Origin: Lachnospiraceae bacterium
Lineage (GTDB): Bacteria > Bacillota > Clostridia > Lachnospirales > Lachnospiraceae
Direction: 5' to 3'
Length of the DNA: 41,986 bases
NCBI GenBank assembly: GCA_017460885.1
Contig: JAFUAB010000011.1
Span: 1-41,986, forward strand
The notes under the pieces are model-generated. The model was not told where the DNA came from. It made no database searches and saw only the letters and a program-made list of their open reading frames with translations. Shown piece by piece: positions 2,522-35,500 of the stretch. The translations under genes were made by a program, and so were the position numbers. Each line of letters begins with the position of its first letter. The stretch's first letter is position 1.

Positions 2522-3484
2522 TCAGATTATCTCGCAATACACAAGAGTCTGGTTGAGGAGCTGGTATGCAACCTCTCCGAATGTAACCGGTCCTGCAAAG
2601 GGAGTTGTCTTCCTGCCCTCCAGATTACCGTTGAGATAATTGAGGATACAGTTACATGAGAACACGGGATCGTGCGCACCTGCCGCATCTATCCGGTTTT
2701 TGAATTCCGTGGCATAATCCTCCACCCTGGTCGCAAACCTGTATTCGATACCTTTAAATACCGGCGCATAAAGATCTACGGAGCCTCCTTCGATCGCCTT
2801 GATCGATGTATTGATATATGAGCCGTTATAATCCGCAACCAGCGGCATACCCGTATCTATGTTCTTCTTTTTGATATATTCGGCAAAATTGATCTCCTGT
2901 CCGTTTACTATGCAGTCAGATACAGTCAGTTCATTATCGGGGAACATTATGATCGGATCGGTCTTATCATCCTCGAAGATATTTATCATGTTGATCATTG
3001 CGGTTTTGTCATCCGGAAGCTTGATATACATGACAACAGCCCTGTCCGAAAAGGCTTCTCCGGTCTGGCCGTTATAAACACAGATATCAGTCTGATCATT
3101 CAGATCCGTTCCCGCGATCCAGCCTATGGTCGGATGCATGAGGAGTTCCTCTACATCCGGTGCTTCCTTGGCAAACTTGGCTACAACCTCGGAACCGTAT
3201 GGCATGATAAGCATCGTAAGGCCGTTATCATAGCACTCTTCCACTATCTGAAAGATATTATACTTGCCATAGCTGGCGATCCTTACCTCTTCCCCAAAAT
3301 CAATCTCGTTAACGTACAGCCTTTCCTTTGTATAGATCCCGCCTTCCTCACTTATAAAATACGGGATTGTACCTCCGATCCAGTTGCCCCTCGGCAGCTT
3401 GGACATCAGGGAGATATCACCTGCGATATGCAAAACCTTCCCCTCATCGATCAATTTGGTAGTTTCTTCCAATGTGATCAGCAT
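2522..3484 (-). CDS. FIST-C-like domain protein, function unknown
   Basis: A 320-residue soluble protein without signal peptide or membrane segment. I place the start at the second in-frame ATG (3484) because AAAGGAGG lies 8 bases before it; an upstream ATG at 3517 overlaps the previous stop codon. The C-terminal third contains DPVFSCNCILNYLNGNLEG and FAGPVTFGEVAYQLLNQTLVYCEI. This resembles the FIST_C signature (a Cys/Asn-containing strand, then G..T.GE.....NQT). FIST domains are ligand-sensing modules often linked to two-component or c-di-GMP proteins, which fits the kinase operon just upstream. The middle has a run of beta-strands (NIFEDDKTDPIIMFP). The FIST-C assignment is an inference from the motif; the rest of the protein I do not recognise. 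Confidence 0.6.
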   Translation of the reverse strand: MLITLEETTKLIDEGKVLHIAGDISLMSKLPRGNWIGGTIPYFISEEGGIYTKERLYVNEIDFGEEVRIASYGKYNIFQIVEECYDNGLTMLIMPYGSEVVAKFAKEAPDVEELLMHPTIGWIAGTDLNDQTDICVYNGQTGEAFSDRAVVMYIKLPDDKTAMINMINIFEDDKTDPIIMFPDNELTVSDCIVNGQEINFAEYIKKKNIDTGMPLVADYNGSYINTSIKAIEGGSVDLYAPVFKGIEYRFATRVEDYATEFKNRIDAAGAHDPVFSCNCILNYLNGNLEGRKTTPFAGPVTFGEVAYQLLNQTLVYCEII

Positions 3485-3513
3485 TTCCGTAACCTCCTTT
3501 TTAGATATAATGA

Positions 3514-3732
3514 TCAAAGAGCTGCGATATTGGCAAAGTCAACCTTGGCTACAATAGGATATTTCTTCGCAAACTCCTCCAATTCATTCATGCATTGCCC
3601 CATACTGTCCTTATTGGCATTGACCCTTTTCTGCATTTTGGAGATCATCATATTAAAAGCAAGATTGGTCGAAGTATATCTGATCTCGCCCGACAATAGT
3701 TTTTCAAGTCTTTCCTTAATATCCTCACTCAT
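3514..3732 (-). CDS. Small hypothetical protein
   Basis: A 72-residue, mostly helical protein (start chosen at 3732, with GGAAGG seven bases upstream). It begins MSEDIKERLEKLLSGEIRY and includes a basic stretch around KMQKRVNANK. No family recognised. It lies 29 bp before the FIST-C-like gene on the same strand, so the two are probably co-transcribed and may act together. No transmembrane or metal-binding motif is visible. Confidence 0.6.
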   Translation of the reverse strand: MSEDIKERLEKLLSGEIRYTSTNLAFNMMISKMQKRVNANKDSMGQCMNELEEFAKKYPIVAKVDFANIAAL

Positions 3733-3909: not shown

Positions 3910-6900
3910 CTATTCATTCAGCACCTCCAGGATGCCTGCGAAGTCATCAGACTGCAGCTTTTCGCGGATCACATCCAGCTTATGGCTGATATCATCGGGG
4001 AATTCATACTCCCCGATCTCGCCGAGGATCTCCTCGATAGACTCTCTGTCCTCACTCTCGGCAGCTTCTCTTGTTCCCTCCACTACTGTTTCTATCAGGA
4101 AGTCATCAGCCTTGGGTCTTCCCTGAGTCTCTATGGTGTCTCCTTCTCCCTTTTCATCATCCTCAGTCAGAACTCCTCTCAGGATGTCTTCATATTTCAG
4201 GTATTCCTGCATGAACCCCGAATGCTTCTCATTGATATAATCCAGATCAACGGCTTTACCGGCATTCTCCAGCAGCTGTGCCTCATCCGCCAGGGCCGTG
4301 GCACCTATCAGTCTGGCAGAGCTCTTTAGCGCATGAACCTTGATGGCATAGTTCTCCCAGTCGCCGCCATCATAGTATCCCTGAATCTCGTTATACTTAT
4401 CATGGATCGAATCATAGAACATCTTAAGTATGGATCTGTAAGCATCTTCCGACCCGCTTATCTGAATTGCGGCATCTCCGTCTATGGATTCGATCTTCTG
4501 ATACCATGCAAGCTCGTCCCCGGAAGCGGATGCCTCTTCATACTGATCATTATCCGGTTCATCTGCGATCTGTGTCTGATCCAGATCGGTCTCGTCGAAT
4601 TCTGTATATGTACTACCGGCGTAATCGTTTTCCTCCTCAAAATACGAACCCAGATTATATGATCTGTTGCTCTTGACAAAATACAGTATTCCGAAGGTGC
4701 CAGGGCCGCAGTTGGATGCTATGGCAGCCGACGCCTGTTTGAAGATAACACGTTCAAAATAAGCTATCCTGCTGATCTCCTCCTGGATCCACTGCAGCGT
4801 TTCGGTAGGCACGTCTACATATGTTATAAACACGATCTCCGAATCCGGTATAACATCAGACGGGAATGCTTTCCTTATATAACCCCTGTATGCCCTTCTT
4901 GTACTGCCTATCCACGCTCCCCCCACTCCGGATCTGTCATCTCTGATCCTCAGCATCGGATGCAGGTTGAGTAATCTGGTAAGCATATGCACCTTAGTGC
5001 TGACCAGATTCTTCTTGACCATATAATCGGTCGTATCAATGATAAAGCTGCACTTGAGCCTTTTTTTGACCGATTCCAGTTCCGCAATGATCTCTTCAAC
5101 GGTAAAACCCTGACGAACCAGCTTGTTGGCTATCATGACAAGGATTCCGGTTGAGCTTGACAGGCACTCGGAATTGACAACATATACATTATCAAACGAT
5201 CTCGCAGCCTCTGACGCAACATGATAGTCATCGCTCATACTGGTAGTTATGGCTATATGTATCAGGAAATGAGCTCTCTTGAGGTTATTGGCAAAGAATT
5301 CGGTGTAATCGGATTCCGTGGGTGCTGAGGACGTCGCATTTCCTCCCCTCTTCATATAGCGCATAACCTCATCCGAATCCATCTGAATGCCGTCCTTGAA
5401 TACTCCTTCATCTGTTTTAACCAGAAACGGAAGTATACTTATGTTTGCCTTCTTGATTATCCTGTCCGGAATATCGGCCATACAGGTAGTTGTGATCATT
5501 ATCTGTTCCTTGCCTATATATCCCGCACCTGCTTCGATATCCTCGAACATGCTCATGGATTTACTGCTGAGCATAAGCTTCTCGGGTGCGATATGCCGGA
5601 TAAGCATTTCCTCAAGGGATTCACCCGATACAGGCTTCACCAGATATCCGTCAAATCCCGCGCGGTTATAGAGTTCCCTGTTCTCACTCCCGGCATTGGC
5701 TGTAAGAACCACCACCGGCGTATTTCTGTTCAGTCCGCCCACCTGCTTTCTAAGCATTTCCATACATTCGATCCCGTCCATTTCTGGCATCAGATGATCC
5801 ATAAGGATAACATCATAATGTCGTTTAAGCGACATATCCAGCGCTTCTTTGCCGCCGGCAGCCTTATCGATGACCATCTCGGTATCGATCAGAAGCCTGC
5901 TCTCCACCTCAAGATTCATTTCATTGTCGTCTACTATCAGGATAGCTGCTTCCGGAGCGGTAAAGCTGCTTTCATATGTGCTGGTCCTGACAACCTGCTG
6001 ATTATGGATATTGAGCTCTCCGATCTCGGAATGATCCGATACGCCCTGACGGATCACGGCGGTAAAGGTAGAACCTTCACCGTACACACTGCTGACAGTG
6101 ATATTGCCGCCCATCAGTTCAATGATCTGTTTAACTATGCTTAATCCCAGTCCGGTTCCTTCGATCATCCTGTTCTTCTCCTGATCCACACGCTTGAATG
6201 CATCGAACAGGAACGGAATAGCCTCTTTCTTGATACCCATACCGGTATCGGAAACGGAAATATGCAGCAGGACGGCATCGTCCCCTGCCTCCTCACTCTC
6301 AATATGCAGACCGATCGAACCGGATGGTGTGTATTTAACCGCGTTATTTAACAGATTGATGATAACCTGTTTGATCCTCACCTCATCACCAAACAGAACC
6401 GAGGGAACCTTCGGATCTATGCTGACATCAAACTTAAGCCCCTTCTCATGAGCTCTCAGCCAGATCATATTGACTATCTCCGACAGCATATTGCCTATAC
6501 GGTAATCAACCGGAACGATATCCATACTGCCGGCTTCCATCTTCGAAAAGTCAAGGATATCATTGATCAGCGCAAGGAGCATCTTTCCTGCGCCCTGTAT
6601 TCCGGATGCATCCTTAACTATCTCATCGGATGCATTTTCATCACGGAGTATCAGTTCGTTCAGTCCGAGGATGGAGTTGATGGGCGTCCTGATCTCGTGA
6701 CTCATGCTGGAGAAAAATCTGTTCTGGGACACGGTCAGTTCTTCAGCTCTCTCGGCTTCCTTCCTGGCACGCTCATTTTCTGCCTTAAAAACCATTCCCT
6801 GGATCAGACTCATCAGAAAGCAGACCAGTCCCACAAGGATCACTGATATGAACATATCTATGTGAGTCATCCTGATCGTATGAACATAGATCAGATCCCG

Positions 6901-7344
6901 AAGCCGGTAGGCGATCTCAAAGCATATTCCCGTCAGTATCGTTATGGCGATAAGGGATGCAGTGCGCAGCTTGCCTGAGAGAACCATTCCGGCATACATA
7001 TAGGCAAATATCACCCATATAAAGCCGCCGCCTCTTAAGCCTCCTCCAAAGATAAAGATTACCGGAAGTATAAAGAATATCAGTAAGGCAACTACCAGCT
7101 TGATCGCAACGTCGACCCTATTCCGTCGCAGGCAGATTATGGTTATGACCGGCATGACTATCAGGGTACCCGCAAGAGTCAGGATCTCTACCATACTTTC
7201 ATCGGTCAGCAGATCACCCACAAATGCGATAAACACCGCAATCTCCGAAACAACAGTCAGGATCAGATACATTCTCTCGGTAAAGTCTCTTTCGGGATCC
7301 TTTACGGCGGCGACGAAATAATTGAAAAGCTTACGTATCCTCAT
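3910..7344 (-). CDS. Hybrid histidine kinase with REC, DegV-like and HPt domains
   Basis: An 1144-residue membrane kinase. Residues 25-185 hold about six transmembrane helices. HisKA follows with the phosphorylated His216 in SHEIRTPINSILGL. The ATPase domain has its N-box around 325-340 (Asn333), DTGMGIK at 366 and GTGLGLSIV at 397. A receiver domain spans about 467-583 (acid pair Asp472/473, phospho-Asp516 in LMDHLMPEMDG, Lys570). Residues 615-895 resemble a complete DegV/EDD fatty-acid-binding fold: ITTTCMADIP near its start, DGIQMDSDEVMRYM, TSSAPT, then an SMSDDYHVASEAA segment and SNCGPGTFGILYF at its end. An HPt domain (955-1060, His1004 in KVHALKSSARLIG) and a helical C-terminal extension complete it. 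The likely job is to sense a signal, perhaps a lipid, and relay phosphate through Asp516 and His1004. Its start overlaps the stop of the preceding kinase gene (ATGA), so translation is probably coupled. Confidence 0.9.
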   Translation of the reverse strand: MRIRKLFNYFVAAVKDPERDFTERMYLILTVVSEIAVFIAFVGDLLTDESMVEILTLAGTLIVMPVITIICLRRNRVDVAIKLVVALLIFFILPVIFIFGGGLRGGGFIWVIFAYMYAGMVLSGKLRTASLIAITILTGICFEIAYRLRDLIYVHTIRMTHIDMFISVILVGLVCFLMSLIQGMVFKAENERARKEAERAEELTVSQNRFFSSMSHEIRTPINSILGLNELILRDENASDEIVKDASGIQGAGKMLLALINDILDFSKMEAGSMDIVPVDYRIGNMLSEIVNMIWLRAHEKGLKFDVSIDPKVPSVLFGDEVRIKQVIINLLNNAVKYTPSGSIGLHIESEEAGDDAVLLHISVSDTGMGIKKEAIPFLFDAFKRVDQEKNRMIEGTGLGLSIVKQIIELMGGNITVSSVYGEGSTFTAVIRQGVSDHSEIGELNIHNQQVVRTSTYESSFTAPEAAILIVDDNEMNLEVESRLLIDTEMVIDKAAGGKEALDMSLKRHYDVILMDHLMPEMDGIECMEMLRKQVGGLNRNTPVVVLTANAGSENRELYNRAGFDGYLVKPVSGESLEEMLIRHIAPEKLMLSSKSMSMFEDIEAGAGYIGKEQIMITTTCMADIPDRIIKKANISILPFLVKTDEGVFKDGIQMDSDEVMRYMKRGGNATSSAPTESDYTEFFANNLKRAHFLIHIAITTSMSDDYHVASEAARSFDNVYVVNSECLSSSTGILVMIANKLVRQGFTVEEIIAELESVKKRLKCSFIIDTTDYMVKKNLVSTKVHMLTRLLNLHPMLRIRDDRSGVGGAWIGSTRRAYRGYIRKAFPSDVIPDSEIVFITYVDVPTETLQWIQEEISRIAYFERVIFKQASAAIASNCGPGTFGILYFVKSNRSYNLGSYFEEENDYAGSTYTEFDETDLDQTQIADEPDNDQYEEASASGDELAWYQKIESIDGDAAIQISGSEDAYRSILKMFYDSIHDKYNEIQGYYDGGDWENYAIKVHALKSSARLIGATALADEAQLLENAGKAVDLDYINEKHSGFMQEYLKYEDILRGVLTEDDEKGEGDTIETQGRPKADDFLIETVVEGTREAAESEDRESIEEILGEIGEYEFPDDISHKLDVIREKLQSDDFAGILEVLNE

Positions 7345-9392
7345 GCTCTTCTACCTCCTCTGACGATCTTCGACTCGGGAAGCTCCCTGAGCATTACTCT
7401 TTCAAAATCCGTGGTGTTGATAGGCTTGGCTATGAATCCGTCAAAGCCCTCCCTTATGAACATTTCCCTGGCTCCTGACACGGCATTGGCTGTCAGTGCA
7501 ATGATAATGATCTCCTTATCAAGCTCCTCAGCCGCCTTTCTAATCTGCTTCATGGCTTCCACTCCGTCCATTTCCGGCATCATGTGATCCATATATATCA
7601 CATCATAATCATTGTGCAGGAATTTCTGTATCGACTCCTTTCCGCTGGAGGCTGTGTCGATGATCATCTCATAGCCGTTAAAAAGTGAAGTGGCCACTAC
7701 CAGGTTCATGGGTTCGTCATCCACAACCAGTGCCTTTACATTCCTGAAAACGGGCTTGATGTGGCTTTCCACTCCGTCCAGATCCTTTGCGTTGCGTCCC
7801 TCGTTAAGGATCTTGATCGCAGGATAAGCATACAGGGGTTTCGGCATGATTATCGCCTCACTTCCCTGATTAAGCTTAAATCCATCTCCCGAGGAAACCA
7901 CTACGATTATGCCCTCTTTGGCAAGTGCTTCAAAATACCCCCTGTTCTCCTCATATTCCTCCTGTCCCATAAAGATATAGCTGACTTCCAGCTTTTCCTT
8001 CAGACGTTCGACCTCGTATACCGTCTCCGCCGAATAAAGCGGTACGTGTATGCCGGCTGCAAGCGAAGAAGCCATGCCCCTGTAGAAATCACGGAGCTGG
8101 GGAACAACATATTTGTCAGGTCTGACATGGAAAAGCACGGCACCCTCGAATTCCCTGTTAAGAGACAGGCACGGTGTGGGATCCACCACTTTCTGTGGAA
8201 TGGTGATCCTTACCGTGGTACCCAGTCCTTTTTCGCTTTCTATCTTGACGAAACCACCCATGGCATGTACAAAGCCATGTACGATATTCATTCCCAGACC
8301 TATGCCGCCGGAGCTGCGATTACGTTTCTTGTTGGCCTGATAAAGACCTTCCGCAAGAGATCTGATGGCGCTCCGATCCATTCCGATTCCTGTATCGGTG
8401 ATCTCGATACACAGGTTCACACCATAGTCCTTATCCTCGGCGAACATCCTGACATATATACCGCCGCGTTTGGTAAACTTCACCGCATTTTCCAGCAGAT
8501 GTCTGAAAAGCTTATGGAGTTTTTTGATATCTCCGTACATTTTGGTCGGGACTCTCGGATCCAGATCCACAACAAGCTCCAGCTTGTCATGATCATCATT
8601 AAGCTTATAGCTGTTTACAACATCATTGATCAGAGACGTACTCATATAGTTCTCTTCCTCAAGCAGAACCTTATGTCTCTTGCATTCCGTGTAATCCTGT
8701 ATATCCTCGATCTGATAAGCAAGTCTGATGCCTGCCCTTTTGATCGCTTCGGCTTCACTGCCTACCTCCCGCTTGATGAGCAGATCGGACATACCGTTCA
8801 CAACATTTACGGGAGTTCTGAGTTCATGGGAGATGTTAGACAGGAAATCCTCCATGTCCGCGTCATTGGATTCCAGACGTTCGTCCTTGAGTCTGTCCTC
8901 TTCGCGTTTATCAAGATTATCACCTATATTTCTTCTGCTGATGAAATACACAAGAAAAATTATGACTGTATGAAGGAGAAGTCGTGAAACAGTGATCCGG
9001 TCATGATCTATCCCCATATTTCCGGAAAGATTCATAAAATGATATATGATGATCACGAAATACTCTGCCAGAAGAACATTGATCATATACATCATCTCGA
9101 AAACCGAAAAGGTGAGCATGACCAGAACTATAGCTATCGAGGCATCAAAGAGCATGGTCTCGTGGATGCTCATATAGAATATCAGCAGAACGGCAACAAA
9201 AAAATAATATGCCACACGTATCTCATACTTAAAATCCTCGATCAGATGCACCGCCCAGATGGAAAAAACCTCGCATAATATAACGATGGGAACCCAGGGT
9301 TCCCATTTCAGCAGAAAATTAATCGCGATCAGTCCTAAAGATGCAACAGTGACCATAAAAACTATATAACGTTCATTGCTTTTTATATTCAT
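7341..9392 (-). CDS. Hybrid sensor histidine kinase with pseudo-receiver and receiver
   Basis: A 683-residue protein; the start at 9392 is preferred because AGGAAGG lies upstream, whereas the more distal ATG at 9419 lacks a clear site. About five or six transmembrane helices fill residues 10-155. HisKA contains the phospho-His189 in SNISHELRTPVNVV. The ATPase domain shows LLENAVKFTKRGG, DTGIGMD and GGIGLGMNIVHG. After it comes a receiver-shaped region (about 415-535) without the phospho-acceptor Asp, then a canonical receiver (about 552-670; Asp602 in YMDHMMPEMDG, Lys656). It should autophosphorylate and pass phosphate to its own receiver. It has no HPt domain, so onward transfer needs the free HPt protein or that of the neighbouring kinase. 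The 3' end overlaps the next kinase gene by 4 bp. Confidence 0.9.
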   Translation of the reverse strand: MNIKSNERYIVFMVTVASLGLIAINFLLKWEPWVPIVILCEVFSIWAVHLIEDFKYEIRVAYYFFVAVLLIFYMSIHETMLFDASIAIVLVMLTFSVFEMMYMINVLLAEYFVIIIYHFMNLSGNMGIDHDRITVSRLLLHTVIIFLVYFISRRNIGDNLDKREEDRLKDERLESNDADMEDFLSNISHELRTPVNVVNGMSDLLIKREVGSEAEAIKRAGIRLAYQIEDIQDYTECKRHKVLLEEENYMSTSLINDVVNSYKLNDDHDKLELVVDLDPRVPTKMYGDIKKLHKLFRHLLENAVKFTKRGGIYVRMFAEDKDYGVNLCIEITDTGIGMDRSAIRSLAEGLYQANKKRNRSSGGIGLGMNIVHGFVHAMGGFVKIESEKGLGTTVRITIPQKVVDPTPCLSLNREFEGAVLFHVRPDKYVVPQLRDFYRGMASSLAAGIHVPLYSAETVYEVERLKEKLEVSYIFMGQEEYEENRGYFEALAKEGIIVVVSSGDGFKLNQGSEAIIMPKPLYAYPAIKILNEGRNAKDLDGVESHIKPVFRNVKALVVDDEPMNLVVATSLFNGYEMIIDTASSGKESIQKFLHNDYDVIYMDHMMPEMDGVEAMKQIRKAAEELDKEIIIIALTANAVSGAREMFIREGFDGFIAKPINTTDFERVMLRELPESKIVRGGRRA

Positions 9393-9457
9393 TTCTCCGT
9401 ATTCCTTCCTGAATAACATGTATCAGGGCCGGTATACACCGTTTTGCCCGATACGCT

Positions 9458-10231
9458 TCAGTGAGTTTTGAAAAAATTGCTGAGCCAGACTAAAAGCTCC
9501 TCCTTTGGAGTGGTCTTAAGAAAATATCCCTGAGGTTTAAAAGCAAGGACCTTTGAAATACTCTCCTTATCTCCGATACCGGTCAGAAATACAACCGGGA
9601 TATTCATGGTATGCGCATCCGCTCTCAGCATTTCCAGGACCTTGGGCCCGCTCAGGACAGGCATCTCATAATCAAGCAGGATCAGATCCGCATGTTCGGT
9701 CGCCAGAAAGCTTACCGCCTCCATTCCTGATGTAACATTCTGTACATTATATCTGACGCTGAGCCATTCGGCTATGATAGACCCGTACATCGGATCGTCA
9801 TCAACTATCAGAATGCTTTTTCTCGAAGCGGTAACAGCCTTAACCTCGATCACCTCTTCTATGATGCCGTCAATGTAATCGACAAAGGCTTCCATGTCCA
9901 GAGGCCGCGAAAACCAGGCCTTTACAGACTGTGTAATGATCGTCTTTCTCAATTCCTCCTGCTCGCCTTTTTCGCCTATGACAAGTATCGGTATCTTCTT
10001 CTCTGTCGCAACGGAGTCCACATGGGCGATCGTTCGGGCGATCGGTGCAACCTCACCGTTCAGATAAATGACAAATATGTCTACCGTGGTCGCATATACC
10101 GTAAGCTTATCACTGTCCGTACCCGCAAAGAACGTATCATAACCGGATCCCTGCAGCTTTCTCTCGATCCCCTTGATTATGACACCCTCGCTGGGACTTA
10201 CTACTACGATATTGCCTTTCCTTTCACTCAT
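9458..10231 (-). CDS. Tandem pseudo-receiver/receiver protein
   Basis: A 257-residue soluble protein with two receiver folds. The first (about 5-125) lacks the phospho-acceptor: its third strand reads VDIFVIYLNGEV with no Asp at the usual place. The second (about 138-255) is complete, with acidic Asp144-146 in ILIVDDDP, phospho-Asp187 in LILLDYEMPVLSG, Thr217 in VFLTG and Lys239 in GYFLKT. There is no output domain, so it probably works by protein contact or as a phosphate shuttle or sink in the relay. Its start codon overlaps the stop of the HPt gene (ATGA), which couples the two in translation. A gap of 65 bp follows before the hybrid kinase. Confidence 0.87.
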   Translation of the reverse strand: MSERKGNIVVVSPSEGVIIKGIERKLQGSGYDTFFAGTDSDKLTVYATTVDIFVIYLNGEVAPIARTIAHVDSVATEKKIPILVIGEKGEQEELRKTIITQSVKAWFSRPLDMEAFVDYIDGIIEEVIEVKAVTASRKSILIVDDDPMYGSIIAEWLSVRYNVQNVTSGMEAVSFLATEHADLILLDYEMPVLSGPKVLEMLRADAHTMNIPVVFLTGIGDKESISKVLAFKPQGYFLKTTPKEELLVWLSNFFKTH

Positions 10232-10938
10232 TTATAATCTCCGTCCTTTCTATATGTCTCTATTCTGTCTGGCCTGTTTTTGCTGATCAGCTCAGCAATC
10301 CTCTCATATTCGAAGCTGTCGCATGCCTCCTTCAATTCATCGTACAGATCCCTTTCACTATCGGGGATTGAATAATCCTCAAGTTCCGTGAATACATCCT
10401 CCAGGGCATCTATGTCCATGTCCTGTGCCGCGTTATACAGCTCGGTGTAGGCTTCCGAAAGCACAAAGGAATCTATCACCGGCCTCTCCTCAGATTCGAG
10501 GATATCCGAGCCCTGTGAAGCGCTAAAGCCCTTCATTACTTCGGACAGCTCCGCGGCGAGCTTCCTGACATCCGAGGTAAATGTCGCATGATTCTCGAAA
10601 ATATAAGCTGCATCACGGGATTTTCCGGCATTTTCCAGCTTCTGCGCATTCTCGCCGGACTCTATGGCGCCTATGATCCTCAGCGTGCTCTTAAGTGCAT
10701 GTACCTTGATAGTATAGTCCTCCAGATCGTTATTGTCGATAAACGAATCCAGATCCGTACATATATGCGGGGCTGAATCACAGAAAATCCCCAGTGCTGA
10801 CAGATAACTGTCGATCGAACCGCTGTTTTCCACTCCGGAATCAGCATCCACTCTTTCTATTTTACGAAGTGCGCTGAGTCTGATGTCTGCCGGCTTACCC
10901 TCGCCGCTTATATTAAATTCAAATTCTGTATTTTTCAC
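10228..10938 (-). CDS. HPt phosphotransfer protein with helical C-terminal extension
   Basis: A 236-residue protein. An HPt four-helix domain occupies about residues 40-145, with the phospho-acceptor His80 in IKVHALKSTLRIIGA. The second half (about 165-230) is a helical module starting near ERPVIDSF. The same module follows the HPt domain of the DegV-containing kinase (its residues 1076-1144, RPKADDF), with the shared pattern LE..EL..Y..P. HPt proteins carry phosphate between receiver domains, so this one can link the two hybrid kinases to the REC-GGDEF protein and the pseudo-REC/REC protein. The gene overlaps both neighbours by 4 bp (ATGA), placing it at the centre of the operon. Confidence 0.9.
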   Translation of the reverse strand: MKNTEFEFNISGEGKPADIRLSALRKIERVDADSGVENSGSIDSYLSALGIFCDSAPHICTDLDSFIDNNDLEDYTIKVHALKSTLRIIGAIESGENAQKLENAGKSRDAAYIFENHATFTSDVRKLAAELSEVMKGFSASQGSDILESEERPVIDSFVLSEAYTELYNAAQDMDIDALEDVFTELEDYSIPDSERDLYDELKEACDSFEYERIAELISKNRPDRIETYRKDGDYK

Positions 10939-12272
10939 GATAGGCTTCTCGTCACGTGGTCAATCTCAAACCACGAGGAATACATATTCTGCTTCCAGAG
11001 AAAACTGATGTCGTCAATTATCCGATCTGATTCGATGACTGAAACGTCCGGCATCAACACATAGTATAAATTTGATCTCACATAAACCACGTCCGTACTG
11101 CGCAGCCTGTCTTCCAGGATATCCCTGAACATGTCCTCAGCCTTTTCAAGGAGATCGGGATCTGCTTCTATGGGACCGATCTTGTCCAGTTCGCAACGTA
11201 CCAGAGCCGACTCCATGTCGTTTGCGTCGGAAGCCCTGCGTACATGTCTCATAATAGCCGTCATATCATCCCTGGATACAAACATGGGCGCATTGGTTCT
11301 GCCCCTTTCCTCCATGAGCTGGATCATTCTGTTTAGTTCCGCTTCTGGATCTCCGGTGGAGCCGGTAACGGACATCCGTGGATCGTAAACCGCTGACCCG
11401 TGCTTGCCGTTCTGCTTGACATTATAGAGCGCAAGGTCTGACCGCTTGTAGAGCTGTTGAAATTCAGTTCCATGTGACGGTACAAAGACTGCTCCGACGG
11501 ATGCCCCGAGAGGAATTCCGTGTTCCTCGCCCATAAGCATGACCGCCAGAGCAGAAAGGTCTGCGTTGATCCTCTCCTGTAGCGAGATCATCGCATCTTC
11601 TTCGACCATCCCCACGTAGAAGCCCATGAACTCATCTCCGCCTATCCTGCTCAGCTCATCACTGCTCCTGGAATTCTTCCTCAGGATGTCAGCAAATCCC
11701 GCCAGTACCCTGTCCCCACAGTCATGTCCGTACAGATCATTGACAAGCTTGAAGCTGTCAAGATCGATCATCAGCAGGGCACCTGTAAGCGTCCGGCACA
11801 TTTCGGTCATCCTCTGCTCACCGCCGATCTTGTTCAACAGACCTGTCAGCCGGTCGGTATTAGCCTCTGTCATGAGGTTTTCCATTACCCTGGAATTGTT
11901 GATGGTATTATGGATACGCTGAAGCAGCACCTCCTTATTGGCAGGCTTGTGCAGAAAATCGGCCGCTCCTTCCTTCAGTCCCCTCTTCTCAACGTCCGCA
12001 TCGGCTTCACCGGTAAGAAATATCACGGGAGTGGGATTTGTGCCGTCTTTCTTTTCAATATCCCTCAGCTGTCTGTATGTTTCGAAGCCGTCCATCTCAG
12101 GCATAAGCACGTCAAGCAGAATAAGATCCGGCGAATGCTTCTGTACAAAGGTCAGAAGCTCTCTTCCCGACCTCAGCACGCTGACCTTCATCATCTGATC
12201 CTTCAGGGTAGACCTTATAAGCTTTAAGCTGGTAACATCATCATCTACCACAACTATCCAATAGTTATCCAT
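10935..12272 (-). CDS. Response regulator with GGDEF diguanylate cyclase domain
   Basis: A 445-residue protein (start at 12272, ATG after a GGAG 11 bases upstream; an earlier ATG at 12314 is possible but adds an unlikely hydrophobic tail). The receiver domain (about 4-125) has IVVVDDDV, phospho-Asp54 in LILLDVLMPEMDG, and a Thr and Lys at expected places. The GGDEF domain (about 140-300) begins DRLTGLLNK, has DLDSFKLVNDLYGHDCGD and the active site RIGGDEF (211-215). An RxxD inhibitory site lies five residues before it. It should make c-di-GMP when phosphorylated and be inhibited by its product. About 130 further residues look like a second, degenerate GGDEF-like fold (DVVYVRSNLYYVLMP). It is the likely output of the phosphorelay encoded downstream. 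Confidence 0.92.
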   Translation of the reverse strand: MDNYWIVVVDDDVTSLKLIRSTLKDQMMKVSVLRSGRELLTFVQKHSPDLILLDVLMPEMDGFETYRQLRDIEKKDGTNPTPVIFLTGEADADVEKRGLKEGAADFLHKPANKEVLLQRIHNTINNSRVMENLMTEANTDRLTGLLNKIGGEQRMTEMCRTLTGALLMIDLDSFKLVNDLYGHDCGDRVLAGFADILRKNSRSSDELSRIGGDEFMGFYVGMVEEDAMISLQERINADLSALAVMLMGEEHGIPLGASVGAVFVPSHGTEFQQLYKRSDLALYNVKQNGKHGSAVYDPRMSVTGSTGDPEAELNRMIQLMEERGRTNAPMFVSRDDMTAIMRHVRRASDANDMESALVRCELDKIGPIEADPDLLEKAEDMFRDILEDRLRSTDVVYVRSNLYYVLMPDVSVIESDRIIDDISFLWKQNMYSSWFEIDHVTRSLS

Positions 12273-12364
12273 AGGATAAAAAACTCCGTTTACAAAAAAA
12301 AGGGATAAAAACAAGAGGTTGAAACCAAGGAATGACTGACTGAGATCCCGAAATTACAGACTGA

Positions 12365-27367: not shown

Positions 27368-30300
27368 TTACCAGATATGAGCCTTTTTCGTCATAAGCTT
27401 ACCCGAATTCAACTGTTCTTTGAAGAGTTTTTCCGCATCCACCGGGGGCTTAAACCCGCCATTAAGGGCAAACTTCACAGTCGTGAGCTGTATGTAGAGA
27501 TCACGACGGGAAGGATCATTCTTCGGCATGAGTTTCATTATCTCTTCATGCGACAGCTTCAAAAGCTGATCCGGATCATACCCGTTCCCCTTCTTCGCCA
27601 TAAGCTTCGGATAAATACTGTATAAAGGATATATTCCTTTTATAAATTCATTTTTTTGCGCGATAAATTGTATCGTTTCTTTGTCCAGAGTGCAGCCTGC
27701 ATCCGGGTGTTTATCTCTAAGCTCTGAATATTCTCCCAGAAATGTATCATTGTCAAAATCATACATCATCCTGCATATCTGACGAAGGTCAAGATTATTC
27801 ATGCTTAACATATCATCCATACTGTTAAAGGAAAGCAGCTTCAGATCAAAATCCAGGATGAATTTCAGGATCTTCTCATATTCGACCCTCTTTGCCACCC
27901 TCTCTTCGGTTGTGGCCTTCTCGTTATTTATTGCCATTTTCTTAAAGATATCGAGGCTTTCCTCCTCCGTAGCCCCCTGAAAATAAGCCATATTGCTTAT
28001 CACGGTAGAATATAGCCTGGGATTGATATTCGCATATCCTTTTGGATCGGGTTTTATTACATTATTAGTATAATCGTGTATTAAATGGTAACGACTTAAA
28101 TATATCCGTTCAGATTCCTGATCGTACTTTTCCAGAGACTCCCTGTCTTTTGCACACAGCTCATTTTCCTTATAGCGGCGTTTTTCTTTTTCAATGTCCG
28201 CCGGATCCGTGCTTTCCCACTTTCTTTGAGTCCTCAGCGTCCTGGGGGTTTTAATCTCCTCCTGAATGACAGGAGGCTTTTCCGTAGTAAAAGTCCAGTC
28301 CTGCATTACCTCAAAGACTTTTTCCGCATCCACCGGGGGTGCAAACCCGTTGTTTTTGTAAAATGCCACAGTCATGACAAGTTGATAAGGTGTAGCACTG
28401 ACAGGATCAACCTTTTTCATGGCAGTCGTTATCTCATCAGTCGAAAGATCCAAAAACTTATCCGGATCAAACCCCTCAATCCCCTTCAGCCGGGGATACA
28501 GATCATAGAAGGCTGCCATTCCTTTAATAAATTCTACTTTTCGCGCGATCAGTTGTATCGTTTCCTTGTCCATGGTACAGTCTGCATCCCAGTAAACATC
28601 TCTAAGCTCTGTATAATCTGACAAAATCTGATCACTGTTAAAATCACGCATCATCCTGCACATTTGACGAAGGTCGACATTATTCATGCTTAACAGATCA
28701 TCCATACTATCAAAGGAAAACAGCTTCAGGTCAAAATCCAGAATAAATTTCAGGATCTTCTCATATTCGACCCTCTTTGCCACTATCTCTTCCGTTGTGG
28801 CGTTCTCGTTTCTTATCGATATCCTTTTAAAGGTATCGATGGTTTCCTTCTCCGTAGTCCCCTGAAAATATGACATATTGCCTAACATGGAAGAATAGGC
28901 CACGGGATTGATCGACATGAATTTTTTACTGTCTTTTGATATCTCATTTGCATAGACTTTGTATATCGCATCGCTATGATCAAGACAGATCCGATCGGAT
29001 TCCTCATTGTACTTATCTAAATACTTCTTTTCTTTTGCGTGCAGCTCATTTCTCTCTTCTTTTTCAAGCTCCGTCAGATCCATATCCATGCTTGACCTCT
29101 TTCTCTTCATCACCCTCTTCCTGCGGTACCGGATCTCCTGCTGAACAAAGTTGCTTGCACTATGCAATACCTTGTAAATATCTTCGAACTCCTGGGATTC
29201 GATGTCCTCACCCTCGATTTCTCCTGCTTGCGCATCTGATAACCTACGGTTTATCAGCTCAAGCCTCTCATCGCTGAAGGAACCCATCTCCTCCATCGAA
29301 ATAAGACTCCTGCATTCCGTGGCAGGCAGCTGCAGCAATCCATCCAAAGGCCCTGAAATATAGTTACAGCAAAAATTATATTTAAAGTCTCCCTCTCTTT
29401 GCAGTTCCTCAATGCTCTCTATGCCTTCGGGGAGCTTCAGCCATCCGCGTCTCCTCTGATTCTTATATATTTCAGCCATATTATCTGCAACATCAACAAG
29501 ATTTGCTCCTATTAAGGATACGGCCTGTTTTTTATAGAATTCATCAAACATTTTATACCGCGGGTTTGCGGAGAATTGCTCTACAGGTATCGAATTATAG
29601 GCATTGTATACTTCTCTCCAAAACATATATTGCTCTCCGGCGGTTCCCGTGATGAGTTTATAAAGCCGTATCATCTCATCTGCAGGCTTTCCCTTCAAAA
29701 AACCCATGATAGTTCTGCTGCCTGCGTTGGGTATATGATACTTTTTCCCGTTCTTTCGACACCACGCTCTCAGCACGGCAGGACCCATGTCACCGACTTT
29801 GCCTCTTATGTCAATCTGACGATCCAAAAACTCCGCTGTTATTGCGTTGGACTGAAAACGCTCTTTTCGCTTCGTGATCTCCTCCGGCGGAACCTCCCCG
29901 GCGGGCTTGGAAGGAGATAAATATTTCCACAGATGCTTTATCTTATCATCCAGACCGATCGTTTCCTTATTCACCTTTTCCTCACACTGTGAGACCAGTT
30001 CCTCTACGGCACCGGGAAGGAACACGGGGCCTTGAAATTTTTTTAATCGCAAGAGATTTTTAATGTAATCATTCCACTCTTCATCCGTCTTTTTAAGATT
30101 GGTGTTATCTATGGCGATTTCACTGTTGATGAAGGTTATGGTGTTACGGATACTATGGAAAAATGTAAGCTTCGCCCTGATCCTTTTGGCATCCTCGTCT
30201 GAGAGCTTAAAGCCGCGCTCTACCCCTCTGACAAGCTCAAAGTGAATATCCTCCGCCTGCTCACACAGCTTCATATTCTCATGATAATGATGGATGATAT

Positions 30301-32005
30301 CGGGAATGCTTTCGCATTTCATTTCATGTATATCCAGCTTTTCGAGCTCCTCCAGTCTGGCCCTTAAGATTTCCTCGCTGTAAGGCGCATCCTTTTCCAC
30401 GGTATTCTGCCGCATATTCCCTTTGTACGCCAGTACATTATCCATAGCAGTCTCAAAAAGTTCATTGTTTTGGGAAATCCGGTCCTTCCTTTCTTTCTGA
30501 TCATAAGGCATGGTGGATTCCATCGACTTCTTCGCTTCCGTTGTTTTCTCGCTGTAAGTCTTGGATACAAGCTCTTTAAGTGTATTCGGATTGTTATATT
30601 CGGCCTTCATCCGTTCATAGAAAGCCTTGGCGTCCCGGTTATTATAATTCGGCTCGGCGCGGCGTTCCATACGTTTTTTATCCACGCCGTTTAACCGCAT
30701 CATCGTCTGCCCCAGGATATAGGATCTGTTCAGAAGCTCGGCGATCTTCTTCTGCTCCGGCGTATTTGCCGCCCCGGTATCCATGGAAAGCTCCTCATTG
30801 TAGTGATCCCTGTAGTAAGGATTTTTGATGATTTCCTTACGAATGTTATAATACGCGGCTATAGAGCGCAGGGACTGCAGTCTTTCCTCCAGCATGTCCT
30901 TCACGTTTCCCTCTATATTGTCCATATAATGATGCTTTGTTGCCATGCGGTCAAAGGCGGCCACACGATTTGAGAGACTCTCCAGTACAGAGGCATTCCT
31001 GATCATATCCGCATCCGTTTGGAAGGAGATGCTGTTGATATCAATAGTAAACAGGGACTGCGCCATAATGTCGAGAGCCGCTTGTATATCCTGTCCTTCT
31101 CTTCCTCCGGGACCTTTATTTTCATTATTACCGATATATTTTCTGAGCAGCGTGAGATTATACTCCTTGTCTTCCCGCACCAAAAACTGTGACAGGTCAC
31201 GATATGCTTCTTCATCGGATAAGACCAGCTTTTGTGCATTGACCGTTTCCTCCATTACGCCTAATGCACCCTGCTCCGATTCCCTTTCCGCCTGTTTTAA
31301 AAGTTCCTCGTTCCTTATCTTCTGAAACAGTCTGGATCTCTTGTTTTTCTTCGTTTCCATACGTTTTCTGTCATTAAGCTTATCGGAAAAAGCTCCCTTG
31401 TAGTCCTTTACCATGAGTTCCTTAGACGGTATATACTCCAGCTGATACACATCTCTGGTCACTCCGATCAGACTACGGGCTTCGGCTATCATGTTATAGA
31501 GCCTGCTGCTGTTCTTTTCTACCGTATGCTCAGACGCAAATGCTTCCTGGTCCATCTTTTCTGCTGCTTTGGCTCTTTTCTCTTTTTCTGCCTCGTGAGC
31601 TTTGCGTTTTTCTTCACGAGCTTTTTCTTTTTCCTGCTTGTGAACAAACGAATCCATGGAGCGGGAAATCCACTGCTTTTCCGCGATCTCATCGGCATCA
31701 AAATATTTCCCCTTGTCAAGGGCCTCGGTCATCTTTGTCAGGTCGGTATCTTTTCCATCGGCGCGAGGGGCATTTTCCTTCCGAAGCATAAGCTCTCTTT
31801 TTATCAGCGGATTTAAGGCATCATCCATTAATTTTGGTTTTTCAGCCAGATCCTCAGGCGCAAGCGGATCCAGTGAAAACTTTCTGCTCTTCGTTTCCCC
31901 GGCCTCAAGGTTACCGTGTATCGCTTCCGACTCAAGCGTGCGGTTAACATGTATAGTTTTCGGTATTTTTTTCAGTTGCTGCTCATCCATATGATTTATT
32001 CCCAT
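27368..32005 (-). CDS. Large hypothetical protein with tandem 295-residue duplication
   Basis: A 1545-residue soluble protein without signal peptide or membrane helix. The N-terminal 150 residues end in a charged coiled coil (KEKAREEKRKAHEAEKEKR), and the middle is mostly helical. Near the C-terminus two copies of one module lie in tandem, shifted by 295 residues (about 988-1240 and 1283-1530). Both contain NPxxYSxxxxNMxYFQG, KRVEYEKILKFILDFDLKL, SMDDxLSMNNxDLRQxCRMM and GFxPPVDAEKxF. A 33-bp stretch is identical in both copies at DNA level, which points to a recent duplication. No catalytic motif or family recognised. The start has AAAGGAG nine bases upstream. It heads an operon with the twin-GNAT and seven-TM genes. 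Confidence 0.85.
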   Translation of the reverse strand: MGINHMDEQQLKKIPKTIHVNRTLESEAIHGNLEAGETKSRKFSLDPLAPEDLAEKPKLMDDALNPLIKRELMLRKENAPRADGKDTDLTKMTEALDKGKYFDADEIAEKQWISRSMDSFVHKQEKEKAREEKRKAHEAEKEKRAKAAEKMDQEAFASEHTVEKNSSRLYNMIAEARSLIGVTRDVYQLEYIPSKELMVKDYKGAFSDKLNDRKRMETKKNKRSRLFQKIRNEELLKQAERESEQGALGVMEETVNAQKLVLSDEEAYRDLSQFLVREDKEYNLTLLRKYIGNNENKGPGGREGQDIQAALDIMAQSLFTIDINSISFQTDADMIRNASVLESLSNRVAAFDRMATKHHYMDNIEGNVKDMLEERLQSLRSIAAYYNIRKEIIKNPYYRDHYNEELSMDTGAANTPEQKKIAELLNRSYILGQTMMRLNGVDKKRMERRAEPNYNNRDAKAFYERMKAEYNNPNTLKELVSKTYSEKTTEAKKSMESTMPYDQKERKDRISQNNELFETAMDNVLAYKGNMRQNTVEKDAPYSEEILRARLEELEKLDIHEMKCESIPDIIHHYHENMKLCEQAEDIHFELVRGVERGFKLSDEDAKRIRAKLTFFHSIRNTITFINSEIAIDNTNLKKTDEEWNDYIKNLLRLKKFQGPVFLPGAVEELVSQCEEKVNKETIGLDDKIKHLWKYLSPSKPAGEVPPEEITKRKERFQSNAITAEFLDRQIDIRGKVGDMGPAVLRAWCRKNGKKYHIPNAGSRTIMGFLKGKPADEMIRLYKLITGTAGEQYMFWREVYNAYNSIPVEQFSANPRYKMFDEFYKKQAVSLIGANLVDVADNMAEIYKNQRRRGWLKLPEGIESIEELQREGDFKYNFCCNYISGPLDGLLQLPATECRSLISMEEMGSFSDERLELINRRLSDAQAGEIEGEDIESQEFEDIYKVLHSASNFVQQEIRYRRKRVMKRKRSSMDMDLTELEKEERNELHAKEKKYLDKYNEESDRICLDHSDAIYKVYANEISKDSKKFMSINPVAYSSMLGNMSYFQGTTEKETIDTFKRISIRNENATTEEIVAKRVEYEKILKFILDFDLKLFSFDSMDDLLSMNNVDLRQMCRMMRDFNSDQILSDYTELRDVYWDADCTMDKETIQLIARKVEFIKGMAAFYDLYPRLKGIEGFDPDKFLDLSTDEITTAMKKVDPVSATPYQLVMTVAFYKNNGFAPPVDAEKVFEVMQDWTFTTEKPPVIQEEIKTPRTLRTQRKWESTDPADIEKEKRRYKENELCAKDRESLEKYDQESERIYLSRYHLIHDYTNNVIKPDPKGYANINPRLYSTVISNMAYFQGATEEESLDIFKKMAINNEKATTEERVAKRVEYEKILKFILDFDLKLLSFNSMDDMLSMNNLDLRQICRMMYDFDNDTFLGEYSELRDKHPDAGCTLDKETIQFIAQKNEFIKGIYPLYSIYPKLMAKKGNGYDPDQLLKLSHEEIMKLMPKNDPSRRDLYIQLTTVKFALNGGFKPPVDAEKLFKEQLNSGKLMTKKAHIW

Positions 32006-32598: not shown

Positions 32599-35500
32599 TT
32601 ACTTGATCGTCATACCTTCTTCGACGTTAATTCCGGCTTTGGAAGTAAACAGCGATCTGATCTTTTCCTTTACGTCCTTCCCGATCGACAGCTTCACCAC
32701 GGCCTTCTCATCGATCATGTTGAACGCTGCCTTACCGATGCTGGCAAGGTTTGCAGACTTGACGGTCACGGTCTTCAGGGATTTGCATCCGTTGAACGCG
32801 TAATCGCAGATCGTCGTCACGTTAGCGGGTATCGTTATCGAGGTAAGACTCACGCAATCCTCGAAGCAGCTTTCGCCGATCGTTCTTAAGCCCTTGCCGA
32901 GTGTAACCTTCTTAAGTGACGTACACTCTGCGAATGCCTCCGTTCCGATTTCCGTTACCTTGGCCGGTATTTTTATGGACTTCAGCGCGCCGCAGCGTTC
33001 AAAGGCCCTGTCATCTATCACGGTCACATTCTTGCCGATGGTCACAGTCTTCAGGGACGTACATCCCATGAACGTATCGTCATGAATGACGGTTACCCCT
33101 GCGGGTATCTTCACGGATGTCAGGGCCGTACAGCCTTCGAATGCTCCGCTGTCTATCTCCCTGACGTTCTTGCCTATGGTAACCTTCGTAATGTACTCGT
33201 TGCCGCTGAAGGCACCGCTGTCAATTCTAGTTACGTCATAATTCATACCCAGGTACTTAACCCTGGCCGGTATGGTAACGCGGCCCTTGGCGACGGTAAC
33301 GTCGACGTTATCTACGCCTACGACCCGGACTGCATTGGCAGTGGATACGGCGTACTGCACGCCCCTGACGTAGAACCTGTCTCCGGACCAGGTCGTAAGT
33401 GCCTGCAAGGCTGCCAGCTGATCGCCGGTGCCTGACAGTACGAACTCGCAATACTCCGGAATGCCCTCAAAAGGATCATTACCGATGCCGGCTTCCATGA
33501 GCAGGGTTGACTTAACCGTAACCTTCCCGAGCAAAACACAGCCGAAAAATGCTGAATCGCCGATCTTATCCACGTTCTTCGGTATCGTGACGGTCTTAAG
33601 GGATACGCATTCCCTGAAAGCGTTATTGCCGATCTCCCTCAGCCCATCCTTAAGGCCAACCGATGTAAGCGCGGCACATCCCTCGAATGCGCTATCCAGT
33701 ATTTCGGTTACACTTGCTCCAAGAGTCACCTTCTTAAGCGAAGTACAGCCCATGAATGCCTGTGCACCGATGGTTTCAACATTCTTGCCGACGGATACGC
33801 TCCTGATATCTGTATTGCCTGCGAATGCGCCAAGTTCAATGGCCACTACCTCATACTTCGTCTTGTCATCGGCAAACTTCACCGTAGCGGGTATCGAGAT
33901 ACTTGTCCTGGAAACGCCGTCTGCAAGTCCTGCAACAGTGACCTTATCATCTCCGATCTTATAGTAGGCAAGTCCGCCTGAAATAAATTTCTCATCGCCG
34001 GTCCTGCTTGAAACCCGGAACGCGAATGAATATTTCTTTAATCCCTGCGTTGCGGTGGTGACATAACCATCGGCCGTATCCGAACTGATGGATACATCAT
34101 CTTTGGAGAGTGAGTTGTATGCCTGCAGGTCTCCCTCATCATAATAAGCATAAACATTGATAAAGCCTGAGCCGCTCTTCTGAACCGTAAGATTACCAAG
34201 AGTATCTACACTCACCGCGCCCTCAGGAGATGATTCAACTTCGTAGCGGTATTTCAGGTTTTCGGCTCCGGTCACCATAACATTGTCGCTCGAAATAAGC
34301 ACTCCTTCTTTGTTTACTACGTATCCCGTTTCCGTGCGTGCCAGTTCTGACTCAACCTGCGGATCAAGAGTTATGACTTCTCCCACTTTGTTTGCGTTAA
34401 ATGACAGTGGTTCTCCTCCGTATACGGTCATGTTTGTAATGGCTGTTACCGTGTTTACCGCATCAACGCTTGCCCTGCGTTCAACCGTTACATCGCTGAT
34501 GGTATCACGATCCGTCTCTACCATGAGCCTGAAGGTCTCGGTCACATTGCCGGATCCATCGGTCGCAGCGGTAAAATATTCATCGGGAATGGTCAGGTCA
34601 GTCTCAATAACTCTGGAATCACCGGGCAGGATCGGATCATTTCCGTATCCGACATTTTGCAATGCTTCAAACTCCGTGCCCATTTCATATCCCAGGATCA
34701 TCTCTGCGTTCTCTCCCGTTTTGGCATTACCCAGATTGGTCAGGGTACCCTTTACGTGATAGATGCCCCTTTGTGCGGTCTCAGTAGCTTCAAGGCTGTC
34801 AAGAACTACGTATGGTTCAAGCTTTTCCCTGATGTCAAGCACTCTCAGGATGCTGCCTGCGGCATCCGTCAGCGTGATCGCGGCTCTTGCATCCTTTGCA
34901 TCCTCATTCAGGGCAAACTGCCCGGTAAAGGTTTGTGCCTTACCTCCGGTGAGTCCATCCATCGTAATGCTTTCTACGGTCGAAATTTCTCCCGTTTCTT
35001 CATCAAGGCTGGTCAAAACGGGATTGCCTGCAGCGTCGGTTGCCCTGACGGTAATGCCATCAAGCGTTTCATAGCCGTCGTTAAGCACGTCAAAAGCAAA
35101 GACGGCGGTATCTCCGGCTGAGGCGTAAGAAAATCCTGCATCCCTGATCTCGGGAGTTCCGTCATTCAGCGTCTTAAATCTCACTGGAACGGCATCCTCC
35201 ACGTCGACGACGGGATACGACATGCCTCCCTCGGTTTTGATCATGGAAGGAGCCTTCCAGGCGAGGCCATTGATGTTCTTTTCTTCATCCACGTCAAAGG
35301 ACACGTAGTCATAACTCATTCCGTTCTCTTCAGTAAGCTGAATGGGCATCGTAATGCCGCTGATCATGCTAATCGGCTTGCCGGAAGTCTCAACGTCAGA
35401 AGGTACCACCTGTACCCTTGCACTGTACAGGTGCCTTTCAAGCACAAGATTCTCGGGATCCTCAGCTTCAGGAGTGTTCTCCTCGACACCTTCCTTAAGA

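Follow-up and report, generated by a model that had tools for sequence, protein, structure and literature searches.

To our knowledge, lipid sensing inside bacterial cells is poorly known, and we know of few kinases with a defined soluble lipid-binding domain. In the DegV family, which includes the fatty-acid-binding proteins FakB1 and FakB2 of Staphylococcus and Streptococcus, fatty-acid complexes are named in the titles of many solved structures. As far as the accessible parts of the two papers go, the fatty-acid carboxylate in FakB1 is gripped by a network of Thr62, Ser95, Ser171 and His270 and Arg173 is a proposed latch (PMC8892158); the FakA reaction is reported to require Arg173, Arg205 being key to FakA and membrane binding (PMC9136124). 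The C-terminal domain of FakA is itself described as a DegV domain in the available excerpt of PMC10146087. Among the kinases, RpfC of Xanthomonas campestris is presented in the accessible text as a hybrid kinase whose 22-residue N-terminal sensor binds the fatty acid DSF (PMC5391125); the word DegV is absent from that paper.

The window, i.e. the whole stretch of 41,986 nucleotides analysed here, encodes a hybrid histidine kinase of 1144 amino acids with a DegV domain (3910..7344, minus strand, as are all features located below unless no strand is given). Its layout was established from Pfam, NCBIfam, an AlphaFold2 model and 80 relatives. An N-terminal membrane region made of helices (residues about 21-187; 6784..7284) gave MASE11 as sole sensor-family match in Pfam, which is weak (E 0.008) and below its cut-off. 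It is followed by HisKA (6529..6726), HATPase_c (6049..6390), a receiver (5602..5943), the DegV/FakB-fold domain (residues 615-889; 4678..5502) and an Hpt domain (4252..4431). All four signalling domains are present with intact phospho-sites: the phospho-acceptor His216, Asp516 of the receiver and His1004 of the Hpt domain are invariant in 75 full-length alignment rows, as are the ATP-site residues of the N and G boxes, and His1004 is found in 78 of the 78 rows with a letter at this place. The protein is thus predicted to be a hybrid histidine kinase of the phosphorelay type, with kinase and phosphotransfer activity. Its scores against the NCBIfam models of TorS and BarA were far below their cut-offs. 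The AlphaFold2 model of the whole kinase reached a pTM of 0.46, at which the domain arrangement is unreliable.

The DegV domain was recognised by PF02645 with 128.8 bits, for a curated cut-off of 27, over profile positions 2-278 of 280. Pfam, the alignment to the S. aureus chain 4x9x and the AlphaFold2 model agreed on the DegV fold. All of this bears out the sequence-only reading, which had placed such a fold at this very site of the first hybrid kinase, had proposed the profile search and had claimed kinship with the fatty-acid-binding DegV/FakB proteins. FakA-like_C gave no Pfam match in the window protein at E 0.01, PF02645 being matched instead; it weakly touches 6 of the 35 short-form relatives described below. 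The kinship of the domain to the C-terminal domain of FakA is a distant one, within the DegV fold. The genome from which the window derives encodes one protein that scores above the curated cut-off for the FakA family, as well as four free-standing DegV proteins; the FakA gene lies on a different contig from the gene cluster of the DegV kinase.

At least 590 confirmed candidates were obtained in a scan of species genomes. The best 80 of the 590 were taken as relatives, a choice that leans to close kin, and the window itself (L005) was left out. These 80 all share the position of the DegV domain within the kinase, one of them (L081) being cut inside DegV. Chance or artefact was rejected as the source of the fusion on account of the domain profile matches and of the same arrangement across relatives. 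Genome surveys, in which at most six candidates were scored per genome and which thus give lower bounds, detected a match at E<=1e-58 in at least 76 of 397 sampled genomes of the window's own family; in at least 69 it lies inside an ORF of at least 480 amino acids, 17 of these ORFs reaching at least 1050. Among 391 genomes of the class (E<=1e-40) at least 10 had a match in a large ORF, six belonging to the window's family, three to one other family (f66) and one to a third family (G095, 580 amino acids). The phylum sample (398 genomes, E<=1e-52) yielded at least three such matches, all from the window's family.

Two main forms were distinguished: a long one of about 1150 amino acids with the order kinase-receiver-DegV-Hpt, as in the window, and a short one of about 900 amino acids which ends with DegV. 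For the 35 short members, Pfam recognised DegV and HATPase in all, HisKA and the receiver in 34 each and Hpt in none. Two further relatives carry DegV at the N-terminus, namely L153, which is cut at its end, and L133 (3808-8544, minus strand of its locus), a 1578-residue kinase in which DegV precedes dCache sensor domains, kinase, receiver and Hpt. The placement of DegV between receiver and HPt, from which the sequence-only reading had derived a gating of the phosphate flow, is therefore not general, as 35 relatives have no Hpt behind DegV and two have DegV in front. Two sequences deviate: about 110 residues behind DegV in L154 have no Pfam match, and the short-form L129 (5951-8563; 870 amino acids) displays DegV and HATPase, with no HisKA, receiver or partner kinase recognised, and is possibly a degenerate or pseudo-kinase.

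In a tree of 137 DegV domains (42 of 84 long rows included, root placed for drawing only), a branch with SH-aLRT 100 separated all 79 fused domains from the 58 free-standing ones. Such a grouping suggests that the fusion probably arose once, in or near Lachnospiraceae. The kinase-core tree, which included 27 long kinase cores, placed L129, L133, L153 and L124 on long branches. The two trees disagree on the long-form L132: by its DegV domain it groups with the N-terminal forms, by its kinase core with the long ones. We therefore refrain from counting independent moves of the HPt.

Pocket and docking residues were mapped by pairwise alignment to chain 4x9x and by a multiple alignment of 121 fused (84 long, 35 short, 2 N-terminal) and 57 free-standing DegV domains. 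Counts drop a fused relative cut at its locus end (L097) and a duplicate of L002 (L134); 22 of the free-standing loci (L096-L117, L097 being the one removed) had been retrieved with the fused domain as query. The FakB2 numbers Thr61, Ser93, Arg170, Arg202 and His266, which we take to be those of 4x9x, fall on the expected letters of the chain, and by its numbering the Ser of the LSGT motif, Ser704, was defined as the equivalent of Ser95. Two hydroxyls of the carboxylate network have been kept according to both alignments. Ser672 (5329..5331) stands at the place of Thr62 in FakB1 and Thr61 in FakB2, where Ser or Thr occurs in 82/84 long, 30/35 short and 2/2 N-terminal forms; Ser704 (5233..5235) stands at that of Ser95 and Ser93, with Ser in 80/84, 23/35 and 2/2, respectively. 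Ser171 is not diagnostic because the free-standing DegV domains do not conserve it either, 53 of 57 having Gly.

The multiple alignment revealed three replacements. Leu780 (5005..5007) occupies the place of Arg173 (Arg170 in FakB2), where Arg was counted in 10/84 long, 19/35 short and 1/2 N-terminal forms against 57/57 free-standing domains. Ile812 (4909..4911) occupies that of Arg205 (Arg202 in FakB2), with Arg in 2/121 fused and 51/57 free-standing domains, a position read from the multiple alignment, as the pairwise alignment to 4x9x gaps that stretch differently. Asn878 (4711..4713) has taken the place of His270: Asn is found in 115 of the 121 fused domains (His in 2, other letters in 3, a gap in 1) and in none of the 57 free-standing ones, which have His in 56 and Tyr in 1. 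The three residues are kept jointly in 0/121 fused and 51/57 free-standing domains, which makes the hand-over of fatty acid to FakA unlikely. The changes are not uniform, as seen from the short forms, of which only 23/35 keep Ser95 and as many as 19/35 still have Arg at the place of Arg173. On the docking face, two positively charged positions, 810 and 812, are now hydrophobic. Concerted switches in the fused set were Tyr to Phe649, Thr to Ser672, Leu to Thr772 and Gly to Ser872. In terms of variability within this set, Asn878 ranked at the 8th percentile (only 8% of the domain positions vary less), Ser672 at the 14th and Ser704 at the 20th. Asn878 being both widespread and little variable, the pocket seems to have been re-specified and not left to decay. 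The sequence-only reading had tied its case to the residues which contact the carboxylate; this holds for the two hydroxyls, and fails for the histidine that became Asn878. Taken as a whole, the residue pattern indicates that the fused domain has left the FakA pathway with several pocket-end positions still constrained. Ordinary FakB was discarded as the identity of the fused domain on the losses at Arg173, Arg205 and His270.

Directly upstream of the DegV kinase, with an overlap of 4 bases, lies the gene of a second hybrid kinase of 692 amino acids (7341..9419), in which Pfam identified HisKA, HATPase and a receiver, and no Hpt. Between HATPase and receiver it has a conserved stretch without Pfam match (residues about 410-560), perhaps a degenerate receiver. 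A large same-strand ORF directly upstream was found in 77/83 long, 30/35 short and 2/2 N-terminal relatives; 53 of these 77 long forms and 11 of the 30 short ones show an overlap of exactly 4 bases, and in the short-form L140 the upstream ORF codes for another DegV kinase. The partners retain the kinase His, the N-box Asn and the receiver Asp, with one or two exceptions among 32 and 77 rows. Of 32 partners belonging to short and N-terminal forms, 29 gave a Pfam match to Hpt; of the 78 long-form partners, 72 were scanned and none gave one.

The distribution of HPt was then counted with a model built in this analysis. Out of 120 DegV kinases, 11 had no readable partner sequence (among them L141, L154 and L124, which have split ORFs, and L129, which has no partner), leaving 109 pairs. 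Exactly one HPt was present in 105 of them, two in none, and none in four. In the 105 pairs, it resides on the DegV kinase for 75 long forms and 1 N-terminal form, and on the partner for 29 short forms; the neighbouring kinases of the remaining 6 short forms were unreadable. These last four comprise L081 and L153, both cut by contig ends, the latter with a small separate HPt ORF nearby; L064, in which an HPt follows DegV in a different reading frame; and L140, where HPts occur in ORFs on both sides of the two tandem DegV kinases. Read in the simplest way, these counts mean that both kinases belong to one unit which needs one HPt, on whichever chain, and this once-per-pair pattern is independent evidence that hybrid kinases encoded side by side work as a single unit. 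As HPt may sit on either partner, the order receiver-DegV-Hpt is not required. The count of one HPt per pair need not hold for the pathway, since a separate Hpt gene is also present in the window.

This gene, coding for a protein of 236 amino acids (10228..10938, Pfam), is located between those of a receiver-domain protein of 257 amino acids in which Pfam found no output domain (9458..10231) and of a receiver-GGDEF protein of the diguanylate cyclase type (10935..12314; Pfam, motif IGGDEF), a possible output. Within the fetched flanks, which differ in length, a GGDEF gene was seen in 35/83 long and 8/34 short loci. A c-di-GMP output is plausible at the window locus and may not be general across loci.

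Further genes were observed around the DegV kinases. Downstream of the DegV kinase in the window (2522-3517) is encoded a DUF6976 protein, a relative of which occurs in 18/83 long-form loci; it matches FIST_C weakly, with a score under the cut-off. Two very long ORFs of 1545 and 3063 amino acids extend at 27368-32005 and 32599-41790 of the window. In 10/83 long-form loci (L007:4280-7429, L131:14068-16725 and eight further ones) there is a nearby hybrid kinase with N-terminal 4Fe-4S and [FeFe]-hydrogenase-like domains, fused in L007 and L131 to HisKA, receiver and Hpt, HATPase being found in L007 and not in L131. A role as hydrogen or redox sensor kinase is possible.

The explanation that we favour, with a probability of roughly 0.55, is that a decommissioned FakB serves as the receptor of a two-kinase phosphorelay and that a hydrophobic, probably acyl, ligand alters the kinase unit. 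In or near Lachnospiraceae, a hybrid histidine kinase would have acquired a former FakB-type carrier by fusion, probably a single time, after which the carrier would have lost its link to the fatty-acid-kinase pathway. Having kept its fold together with some of the polar end of the acid pocket, and having lost the residues for phosphorylation of the cargo by FakA, the DegV domain would most likely be a cytoplasmic ligand-binding receptor. Ligand binding could shift, in one direction or the other, the autophosphorylation or the phosphotransfer of both kinases to the single shared HPt, from where phosphate may pass on, at the window locus, to the receiver protein and to the receiver-GGDEF diguanylate cyclase. 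A counterpoint is that the membrane region of the kinase may be the real sensor. The nature of the ligand leaves room for a variant that overlaps with this explanation, in which the receptor recognises an acyl ester, an aldehyde, an isoprenoid or another amphiphile. The neutral Asn in 115/121 domains and the concerted switches at 649, 672, 772 and 872 speak for it, but Asn can still hydrogen-bond a carboxylate and fatty acids are the ligands named for many solved DegV structures, so that we hold this variant to be possible, at about one chance in three.

The loss of the two arginines and of the histidine would equally suit a DegV domain devoid of any small ligand, acting as a protein-interaction scaffold that holds the partner kinase, for instance, or places the HPt. 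The frequent co-occurrence of the partner fits such a role, and so do the hydrophobic positions 810 and 812, as might be expected of a protein interface. However, a pure scaffold would not need the little-varying Ser672, Ser704 and Asn878, and a fixed spacer would hardly tolerate the move of DegV to the N-terminus in two relatives; we regard the scaffold as rather unlikely. Much less probable still is a working FakB-like carrier tied to FakA-type kinases and gating the phosphate from receiver to HPt, as the sequence-only reading had it. The fold, the two hydroxyls and the presence of FakA in the genome speak for such a carrier, but the window domain has lost the residues linked to FakA reaction and FakA binding in the accessible part of PMC9136124, no fused domain retains both arginines together with His270, and the domain order is not conserved. 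Coming back to the receptor, a broader formulation can be given tentatively, at somewhat less than even odds: a carrier decommissioned once would have become, across Lachnospiraceae, the receptor of an obligate two-kinase phosphorelay which reads the intracellular lipid pool directly and signals by phosphorelay, in some loci by c-di-GMP, with the HPt on either kinase of one machine. If true, gut and rumen Lachnospiraceae would read their lipid pool without intermediary, a question that is directly testable on one soluble domain.

The open-licence literature, as far as its accessible text goes, offered no description of a DegV-kinase fusion or of a kinase with such a sensor, and no DegV-histidine kinase fusion is described in the available portions of PMC3146951, PMC3533761 and PMC12688256, in line with the sequence-only reading, which knew of no characterised example. 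The pairing of a DegV kinase with a second hybrid kinase under the one-HPt pattern is newly reported here. Compared with its kin FakB1 and FakB2, the window domain is fused to a kinase, lacks Arg173, Arg205 and His270 and belongs to a signalling gene cluster; a whole kinase family thus carries a domain of fatty-acid-binding parentage with a clean residue signature of exit from the FakA pathway. With RpfC, the window kinase shares the receiver and the HPt of a hybrid kinase, and fatty-acid binding as a prediction. We know of no HPt traded within a pair in the RetS/GacS network. The likeness to that network lies in sensor kinases acting on each other, like the kinase pair here, according to the accessible part of PMC12148439. 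The BarA/TorS-type hybrid kinases have in common with the window kinase the order HisKA-HATPase-receiver-Hpt and all phospho-sites, whereas the window kinase adds the DegV domain, and its family trades the HPt with a co-encoded second hybrid kinase.
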